NCBI GenBank assembly: GCA_024275955.1
Contig: JAJRYD010000001.1
Coordinates: 1 to 22,822 of the forward strand
DNA length: 22,822 bases
Source of the DNA: Nitrospirota bacterium
GTDB taxonomy: Bacteria; Nitrospinota_A; UBA7883; JACRGQ01
Reading direction: 5' to 3'
The notes under the pieces are model-generated. The model did no database searches, was not told where the DNA came from, and saw nothing but the letters and a program-made list of their open reading frames with translations. This document shows, piece by piece, positions 10,376 through 22,822 of this stretch (the stretch's first letter is position 1; every line of letters begins with the position of its first letter). A program made the position numbers and the translations under genes.

Positions 10376-10678
10376 ATTGGTTTAAAACTTCCCTCCTAAG
10401 GCGTCAATCTTTGGTTTCTGATACCTTTTGGATCTTTAGAGGGCTGTTGCCGAAATGGTTGACGAGTGTTCAGCTTTGCATATCTTTCGCTCGCTTTTTC
10501 TTTTGAAGAATTCCCTTAACCGAAAACTAAAAAGGGGCTGTTGCCGAATGAGATAAATTTGGTTTTTCTACAAATTACCAATCTCTAAAGGTTCTATTTT
10601 AAAGAAGTTGGGAAATGAACTTCTTCTTAAAATCCTCAAAAAACTCTTTTGGAAACAGTCCCCAAAAAGGCTAAAAAA
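10376..10678. other. Intergenic region with a repeated GGGCTGTTGCCGAA motif
   Basis: There is no gene in these 303 bases. GGGCTGTTGCCGAA occurs exactly at 10441-10454 and 10535-10548. A related GCTATTGCCGAA occurs near 11971, and the inverted AGGGGCTGTTGC lies at 12370-12381. The first copy continues as GCCGAAATGGTTGA, which matches 12 of 14 bases of the 5' end of the adjacent tRNA-Leu gene (GCCGAAGTGGTGGA). It may hold relic insertion ends or a decayed tRNA copy. Confidence 0.45.
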
Positions 10679-11882: not shown

Positions 11883-11990
11883 GTATAAAAACAGTTCCTA
11901 AGGGAACCTCTAAAAATCTATTTTTAAAGTTCTGACTTTTGGTTGGTCGAATTATAGATGGGGATTTAGTGCTATTGCCGAAACCGATGA

Positions 11991-12383
11991 AATATTCAAT
12001 GTTCTAACCTCGTTAAGAAATATCTAAAGTCTGTCGGCTGTGATAGCGACGGATTTGCCATCTTCCCCGGTTATGAAACTGGAAACTGGGCAATGGCGCG
12101 TCTTCTGAGACGTTGGGCCAGATATAAAAATGAAACGATAGAAAGCACCATAAAAATATATTCTCCTTCTACAGACGGAAACCCTACGGAAAAGTACATT
12201 GAATACGTTGCGAGAGAATCCGGGTTACCCAGAACGAAAGTAATACTTGATATGACCGACGATGAGTTTGAACAATTCCAGAGGGCGATGAGGGAGTTTG
12301 AAGACAGTACTCCGAACTACTCTTTAACCGATTTCGGAGATGGAAAGTATTACAAACAAGATTATTTGAGCAACAGCCCCTAG
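11991..12383 (+). pseudogene. Truncated phage-type gene (prophage virion/lysis-associated family)
   Basis: The frame is open from 11991 to TAG at 12381-12383, but the only good start, ATG 12093, lies inside the conserved part. The fragment DGFAIFPGYETGNWAMARLL followed by a YSPSTDGNPTEKYIEYV segment resembles the prophage family whose members begin RNNNPxNIR and continue with F.VF....G.RA...LL and a WAPxxENxTxxYIxxV block. The N-terminal RNNNP motif is missing. A neighbouring frame just upstream reads FNVLTSLRNI before a stop, which may be its shifted remains. I therefore read it as a degraded fragment; a short functional gene from 12093 (96 residues) is less likely. Confidence 0.5.
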
Positions 12384-19673: not shown

Positions 19674-22340
19674 ATGTTTGGTACGATTTTAAGTAAAATA
19701 TTTGGCAGTCACAATGAGCGGGAATTAAAGCGCATAAGCGAAACCGTCGACAAAGTAAACGCGCTGGAGCCGGAGATATCTGCCCTAGATGATGCCACCC
19801 TTAAAGGGAAAACGGCAGAGTTCAAAAACCGCCTGAAAAGCGGGGAGACTCTCGATTCACTGCTCCCAGAGGTCTTCGCCGTCTGCAGAGAAGCGGGAAA
19901 AAGGGTTTTGAACATGCGTCATTTCGACGCGCAGATTATCGGCGGCGTAGTGCTTCACGAAGGAAAAATAACCGAAATGAAAACCGGCGAAGGAAAAACG
20001 CTGGTAGCTACCCTCCCGACGTATCTTAACGCTCTTACCGGCAGGGGCGTGCATGTCGTAACAGTCAACGACTACCTAGCGACAAGAGACTCGGAATGGA
20101 TGGGAAAACTATACAAATGGCTCGGCCTATCGGTAGGCGTAATAATCAACAACCTCGAAGAGGAGATAAGGCAAAAAGCGTATAGCTCCGACATCACATA
20201 CGGCACGAACAACGAGTTCGGGTTCGACTACCTGCGCGACAACATGAAGTTCGACAAACAGTCGTGCGTTCAGCGGGAACTAAACTTCGCGCTGGTGGAC
20301 GAGGTCGATTCGATACTTATAGACGAAGCAAGAACTCCGCTTATCATCTCCGGCCAGGCCGAGCAGTCTACTGAACTTTATGTAGACGTAAACAAAATCA
20401 TTTTACCGCTTATGAAAAAAGAGGAACTTTATACCATAGACGAAAAAGCACGCTCCGTGGCGCTTACGGACGATGGAATAGTAAAAGCCGAAGAGCTCTT
20501 AAATGTCCAAAACCTTTACGACCCGCGCAACGTGGAAACACTTCATCATCTTAATCAGGCTATGAAGGCCCATGCGATTTTCAAGCGGGATGTCGATTAC
20601 GTCGTCAAGGACGATAAAGTTTTAATCGTAGACGAATTCACCGGCAGGCTTATGGAGGGGCGGCGCTATTCTGACGGACTGCATCAGGCACTGGAAGCAA
20701 AAGAGGCGGTAACTATAGAGCACGAAAACCAGACTCTCGCCTCTATAACATTCCAGAACTACTTTCGGCTTTACAATAAACTCGCCGGAATGACAGGCAC
20801 CGCCGATACCTAAGCAACAGAGTTCCAGAATATATACAAACTCTCGGTTACTATAATCCCCACCAACAAACCGATGATAAGAGACGATCAGTCCGACCTT
20901 ATATATAAAACAACTAAAGAAAAGTACGATGCTATCGTCGATGATATAGAAGCGTCGCGCAAAAAAGGACAGCCGGTGCTGACCGGTACCATATCTATAG
21001 AAAATTCCGAAAAGATATCTCGGTTGCTTAAAAAACGAGGTTTAAGGCACAGCGTTCTTAACGCGAAACACCATGAAGATGAAGCGCAGATAGTAGCGCA
21101 GGCCGGAGCAAAAAACGCGATAACTATAGCGACGAATATGGCCGGCCGCGGAACCGACATCGTTCTTGGCGGTAACGCCGAAAAACTTATGGAGAACGAA
21201 GGGATAGACCCGCTCGACAAAGAGAGATGGGACAAACGGCTTGCCGAACTGATAAAAGAATGCGAAGAGAATAAAAAAGAGGTGCTTGCCAGCGGTGGGT
21301 TAAGAATAATAGGAAGCGAGCGGCACGAATCACGCCGTATAGACAACCAGCTGAGGGGACGCTCTGGACGGCAGGGGGACCCGGGTGAATCGCGTTTCTA
21401 TATTTCGCTTGAAGACGACCTGATGAGAATATTCGGTTCCGACAGAATAGCCACCGTGATGGACAAACTCGGCATGCAGGCAGGAGAGCCGATTGAACAT
21501 AAAATGGTCTCCCGTGCGATAGAAAACGCCCAGAAAAAGGTGGAAGGACACAACTACGATATACGCAAGCATCTTCTTGAGTACGACGACGTTATGAACA
21601 AACAGCGTGAGGTTATCTACAGCCAACGCGGAGAGATTCTCGAAGGAGCCAACCTAAGAGAAGAGGTTATAGATATGGCAAGGCTCCTTGCCGAAGATAT
21701 TGTTTACGAACATTGCCCAGAAAAAGCACACCCGGAAGACTGGAACCTTGACAGCCTAAAAGAACTGCTTCCCGCGCGGCTTGGCCTGCAGGTTTCCGTA
21801 GATGAGGGGAAAAACCTGACCATAGGCGAAGAAAAACTCTCGTTCGACTTGATGCTTCACGAAGATGTTATCGAAGCGGTAAGCAAAGAGGTAGAAGCGG
21901 CGTATAAACGCCAGGAAGAGATAGTGGGAGACCCTGAGCGTTTGAGAGGGTTCGAACGCTACATAATGCTCAACGTGCTTGATTCGATGTGGAAGGATCA
22001 TCTGCTCCATATGGACCACCTAAAGGAAGGGGTAGGTTTTAGGGGATACGCCCAGAAAAACCCACTAAACGAATACAAGCGCGAAGGGCATCAAATGTTT
22101 CAGGATATGATAAACCGCTTCAAAGATGAGGTTGCGTCTGTATGCTTTAAGGTAAAAGTAGAGGCTGGTGCCGATGAACCGCTGGAACAAGAGAGACGGG
22201 AACAAAAAGTTATAGAACACCGGGGAGAAGCGGAACTGCCGGAACAGACAACCGTAAGACGCACAACGCCAAAAGTAGGACGCAACGACCCTTGCCCATG
22301 CGGTTCCGGTAAAAAATATAAAAAATGCCATGGGAAATAA
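19674..22340 (+). pseudogene. secA: Preprotein translocase ATPase SecA, interrupted by one in-frame TAA
   Basis: SecA is the essential motor that drives unfolded preproteins through SecYEG. The whole frame from ATG 19674 to TAA 22338-22340 covers 888 codons, normal for SecA. Walker A is TGEGKT (104-109), Walker B-type DEVD is at 209-212, and [18 protein letters not shown] and the family-typical GTADT follow. NBD2 motifs ([33 protein letters not shown]) and a C-terminal SEC-C zinc tail ([13 protein letters not shown]) are present. Codon 380 (20811-20813) is TAA where the family has Glu (GTADTE); the codons after it still encode [12 protein letters not shown] in the same frame. As written, translation would give 379 residues, plus perhaps a second piece from ATG 20874, which lacks a ribosome binding site. 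One base change (GAA to TAA) explains it: sequencing error, minor variant, true nonsense allele or readthrough. Confidence 0.9.
20811..20813 (+). other. In-frame stop codon inside secA
   Basis: TAA replaces the conserved Glu codon after MTGTADT, just before NBD2. The frame is the same before and after, so this is a substitution and not an indel. TAA also ends integrase and secA, while TAG and TGA end other genes here, so a changed genetic code is not indicated. Confidence 0.9.
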
Positions 22341-22413: not shown

Positions 22414-22489
22414 GGGCCGCTAGCTCAGTAGGTAGAGCAACGCCCTTTTAAGGCGTGGGTCGAAGGTTCGAATCCTTCGCGGCTCACCA
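22414..22489 (+). tRNA. tRNA-Lys (anticodon TTT)
   Basis: The gene is 76 bases with encoded CCA. Acceptor strands GGGCCGC and GCGGCTC pair with one G-U. The D-arm TAGCTCAGTAGGTAGAGCA, anticodon stem ACGCC/GGCGT with loop CTTTTAA (anticodon TTT) and T-arm GAAGGTTCGAATCCTTC are all complete. It starts 73 bases after secA and is 18 bases from tRNA-Glu, so the two are probably cotranscribed. Confidence 0.97.
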
Positions 22490-22507: not shown

Positions 22508-22585
22508 GTCCCCATCGTCTAGTTTGGTCTAGGACACCGCCCTTTCACGGCGGCAACAGGGGTTCAAATCCCCTTGGGGACGCCA
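22508..22585 (+). tRNA. tRNA-Glu (anticodon TTC), integration site of the adjoining element
   Basis: The gene is 78 bases with encoded CCA. Acceptor strands GTCCCCA and TGGGGAC pair perfectly; the anticodon stem CCGCC/GGCGG has loop CTTTCAC (anticodon TTC); the T-arm is AGGGGTTCAAATCCCCT. Six bases after its CCA comes the stop codon of a tyrosine recombinase on the other strand, the usual arrangement when an element has integrated into a tRNA 3' end and rebuilt it. Confidence 0.96.
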
Positions 22586-22591
22586 AATTTC

Positions 22592-22822
22592 TTAATGACT
22601 TACACCTCCTTTCCTCCCTTTGGGAACCTCTACTGTGTCCAAATTGTGACCCAAATTTTCAAATATATTTACAGCATCACGCAAATTCTCCGGTGCAAGG
22701 TGTGCATACCTTTGCGTCATCCTCGCATCCTTGTGACCAAGAAGTTTTTGGACTTTAAAAAGGTCTACACCGTTCTGAACGAGCATAGAGGCGAAATGAT
22801 GCCTTAAGTCGTGCCAACGAAA
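22592..22822 (-). CDS. Tyrosine recombinase/phage-type integrase, C-terminal part (runs off window)
   Basis: 76 residues plus a TAA stop are visible; the 5' part lies beyond base 22822. The catalytic C-terminal signatures are present in order: HDLRHHFAS with the second catalytic Arg, LLGHKD with the conserved His, and the nucleophile Tyr in TQRYAHL. The tail after the Tyr is about 36 residues ([15 protein letters not shown] ... KGGVSH). Such enzymes cut and join DNA at att sites, and this one ends 6 bases from tRNA-Glu, so its attachment core is most likely in the tRNA 3' end. It marks one boundary of a genomic island or prophage extending to the right. Confidence 0.93.

Follow-up and report, generated by a model that had tools for sequence, protein, structure and literature searches.

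The question raised by this locus is whether the stop codon that interrupts secA belongs to the living cell or to the consensus in which the gene was read. The window, a stretch of 22,822 nucleotides, constitutes one whole contig (C47) of a draft genome of 2.45 Mb in 56 contigs, estimated as 98.4% complete and 0.15% contaminated. Its secA frame covers 888 residues from the initial ATG and holds a single internal stop, a TAA at codon 380 that is in frame with this ATG, the next in-frame stop being the TAA at 22338-22340 (Table 1). On account of the internal TAA, the gene cannot be described as one uninterrupted SecA reading frame. The Pfam domains SecA_DEAD and SecA_PP_bind are matched before it and P-loop_SecA, SecA_SW and SEC-C after it, in both cases strongly, and the domain order (DEAD, cross-linking, second ATPase, wing/scaffold, SEC-C) is complete, in two pieces around the TAA. 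The original prediction of a lone in-frame TAA at a conserved Glu codon was borne out by comparison with 98 other secA genes, all of which encode Glu in this column (GAA in 59 and GAG in 39). The accompanying statement that the gene shows no further decay also holds, codon 380 being the sole departure of the window gene among 218 SecA columns that are invariant with at most one exception. Because conservation is strong on both sides, the break is more than a chance interruption of an open reading frame; to judge from the codons of relatives, it would have arisen by a G-to-T change.

Table 1 Features of the window and lone in-frame stops found elsewhere in its genome and in a relative, G001 (positions without a contig or locus label are those of the window).
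Feature	Stop	Location	Strand	Remark
secA		19674..22340	+	frame intact but for one codon; only copy in assembly
In-frame stop, secA codon 380	TAA	20811..20813	+	Glu in every other SecA gene compared
Open stretch before stop		19674..20813	+	DEAD (NBD1) and preprotein cross-linking domains
Open stretch after stop		20874..22340	+	from first in-frame ATG
tRNA-Lys		22414..22489	+	normal anticodon TTT
tRNA-Glu		22508..22585	+	normal anticodon TTC, not a suppressor
gatB	TAA	C18:23439		same genome
ribBA	TAA	C6:147256		same genome
Cysteine desulfurase, IscS-type	TAG	C4:1828-1830	minus	same genome
cheA	TAA	C16:51854		same genome
motB, probable	TAG	C12:334		same genome
pal, probable	TAA	C6:107426	minus	same genome
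secA of G001	TGA	L134 11724		relative
leuS of G001	TAG	L248 3292	minus	relative; aligned to the window's own intact leuS
cbb3 oxidase gene of G001, probable	TAG	L141 5003		relative; inside COX1 domain

The stop had been treated as unique to secA, and this view could not be maintained. A coding-potential scan over 1.12 Mb (46%) of the genome, with candidates checked against Pfam, solved structures and relatives, revealed lone in-frame stops in at least four other core genes, namely gatB, ribBA, an IscS-type cysteine desulfurase and cheA. Two further probable cases, motB and pal, were recognized from downstream OmpA domains and upstream parts that match relatives across the stop. All of these other stops sit on five contigs besides that of the window; relatives keep the frames open, and none has any of the same stops. 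The ribBA stop site is Glu in 21 of the 21 relatives compared, and both the ribBA and the cysteine desulfurase stops fall inside single domains. The case for Glu as the original residue is weaker at the remaining sites, since gatB and cheA vary at this position, the residue in motB is read from one homologue, and none could be assigned in pal. One candidate nonsense site (L166), where a P-II-like ORF is followed by CBS domains, was rejected as relatives have a natural gene boundary there, and the TGA codons of relatives' cysteine desulfurases proved to be C-terminal ends and not internal stops.

Ten genomes of the same family were compared, and those with a secA covering codon 380 have Glu at this position. 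G001, a member of the same family but of another genus, has a different lone stop in secA, a TGA that replaces the Gly of all other sequences at codon 500; the secA of its congener G007 is intact, and no internal stop was found in 80 further secA genes. Over the 465 kb of G001 that were scanned, lone stops were also met in leuS and probably in the cbb3 oxidase gene. In 360 kb of a third family member, G002, judged by eye, no lone-stop case stood out, a contrast that is not significant given that about two would be expected at the rate of the window's genome.

The genome-wide search for a second secA that had been proposed as a check was carried out with both SecA halves and with PF07517, at the protein and HMM level, and none was found in the whole assembly. 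Among the explanations offered at the outset, a second secA is hence excluded within the assembly and readthrough gains no support, while the recurrence of such lone stops in other core genes here and in one relative favours consensus error or strain heterogeneity. We consider it probable that the secA TAA owes its existence to a wrong base, or to that of a minor variant, in a short-read metagenome consensus, with the living cells most likely having Glu at position 380; we infer that these cells do not carry the TAA base. That several unrelated core genes of one genome show lone stops of this kind, as observed here, is what consensus error would lead one to expect. A cell lacking SecA, GatB and RibBA simultaneously is not credible, and consensus errors or minor variants are the best account since the stops of these three genes occur together, are unshared by relatives and are accompanied by no decoding apparatus. 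According to such an account, the genome would contain dispersed single-base errors, about 1-2 in every 10 kb, the secA TAA would be one of them, and those creating stops in conserved genes would be the ones easily spotted.

With six to seven nonsense changes, approximately 155-181 substitutions are implied in the scanned part, that is 1.5e-4 to 1.8e-4 per base, a frequency plausible for a shallow short-read assembly. The assembly itself has some contig ends with 135-141 bp in common at 99-100% identity, overlaps which fit a de Bruijn graph assembler and could point to MEGAHIT with k=141. The original residue is best established at three sites (secA, ribBA and cysteine desulfurase) and is Glu at each of them. 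With the codon usage of this genome, Glu would account for 21% of nonsense changes under random substitution and for 54% under G-to-T/C-to-A change; the three sites fit a G-to-T process better than random substitution, although this is suggestive only, the residues elsewhere being uncertain. Oxidation of guanine during library preparation is a known source of G-to-T artefacts (PMC12390751), and oxidative G-to-T damage may have contributed here. No G-to-T missense change, and no excess of missense changes, was seen in 579 near-invariant columns of SecA, GatB and RibBA, a weak test since the implied error rate predicts less than one error in these genes. Repeat copies, from which the kinds of error might have been read, were also sought, but diverged repeat families and overlaps of contig ends were all that emerged.

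At 10531-10666 the window contains a copy of a dispersed repeat that is about 130 bp long, has inverted ends and resembles a miniature transposon; nhmmer recorded 81 matches to it over 1.12 Mb of this genome, against none over 825 kb from two members of the same family. Another dispersed repeat (11896-11991), about 95 bp in length, has six matches in the same 1.12 Mb and none in the two relatives sampled, and a tandem array with an 81-bp period occupies 15846-16484 of L232. The window additionally encodes a DpnII-type restriction endonuclease (PF04556) on the minus strand at 1763-2686. Beside the tRNA-Glu gene, the contig breaks off within a phage-type integrase (PF00589; C-terminal part at 22592-22822, also on the minus strand), an arrangement that suggests the border of an element inserted at this tRNA.

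Strain heterogeneity differs from pure consensus error in that the nonsense allele would be real, being carried by part of the population or by dead or damaged cells and chosen by the assembler, with most cells intact. A draft of 56 contigs leaves room for this, as an assembler can retain a minor branch, and in-frame stops that are mostly short-lived have been reported in bacteria at SNP-like frequency (PMC7918605). Nevertheless, nonsense alleles of secA, gatB and ribBA would be purged at once, and one would not expect a single population to have several such alleles at high frequency, which makes this explanation unlikely.

It is considerably less likely that TAA and TAG are truly suppressed, with Glu or another residue inserted through a suppressor tRNA or leaky termination to yield full-length proteins, even though a lone TAA or TAG is present in several core genes and the residue replaced is Glu wherever it can be inferred best. 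In total, 40 tRNA genes were found by covariance model, a set that is not quite complete since Ala(TGC) and Ile(GAT) are missing; its tRNA-Glu anticodons are TTC and CTC, and ARAGORN detected no suppressor anticodon (TTA, CTA or TCA) among the 40. Most long genes end in the very codons that would be suppressed (TAA 180, TAG 160, TGA 118 among the terminators of long ORFs). Neither a matching tRNA nor a stop codon rare or absent as terminator, the marks of reassignment, was therefore observed. Programmed readthrough or recoding finds no better footing, as the stop is not conserved at this site in relatives and no structured downstream element is seen, the 90 nt of RNA from the secA stop folding no better than shuffled sequence (z -0.72). 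Moreover, the stops of G001 include TGA at a Gly position, which lies beyond a single Glu suppressor. A variant in which this Nitrospinota-related lineage puts up with in-frame TAA/TAG in essential genes because Glu is efficiently inserted, by a tRNA that escaped recognition or owing to weakened termination, although most genes still end in these codons, is a slimmer prospect yet.

More improbable again is a split SecA, in which termination followed by re-initiation near 20874 would give two separate halves that assemble into a working motor. In favour of this, the stop separates the first nucleotide-binding domain from the second, and the ORFs on either side of it are open. However, reading the sequence by eye, no purine-rich ribosome-binding site was seen just upstream of the ATG at 20874, so re-initiation there is without visible support; a start at this ATG would cost about 20 conserved residues, and a split secA occurs in no relative. 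The breaks inside single domains of ribBA and cysteine desulfurase also imply that splitting cannot explain the set. Least probable of all, a real stop in a dead secA with the function supplied by another SecA could be accommodated in the 1.6% of the genome that may be missing, but it is opposed by the single copy in the assembly and would leave the gatB and ribBA stops unexplained.

If the stops are errors, this genome and at least one relative (G001) contain false pseudogenes in core genes, and polishing would be needed prior to any claim of gene loss for these genomes. If they were real, a cell living with the SecA, GatB and RibBA stops together would need a hidden decoding system.

In comparison with bacterial SecA (NCBIfam TIGR00963/PRK12904; PF07517, PF01043, PF21090, PF07516, PF02810), the window gene has all the domains in order and its product is 67-74% identical to full-length SecA of family members, with 67-68% identity to those of a Nitrospinota MAG (L035) and an unclassified MAG (L034), but a TAA takes the place of one Glu codon that is otherwise invariant. 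Stop-codon reassignment and suppressor tRNA systems likewise present TAA or TAG where a sense codon is expected, whereas here there is no matching tRNA and the same codons end most genes. The in-frame stops of bacterial genes treated in PMC7918605, which according to that view are often read through but the vast majority of which its authors assume to be without functional recoding, are alike in being lone stops in otherwise conserved-looking genes; those described here differ in that they come from a draft assembly, affect essential single-copy genes and are common to no relative. With regard to 8-oxoguanine G-to-T artefacts of short-read sequencing, the TAG in the leuS of G001 is not one G-to-T change away from the residues in homologues, whereas the best-supported stops, at Glu in this genome and at Gly in G001, fit that pattern.
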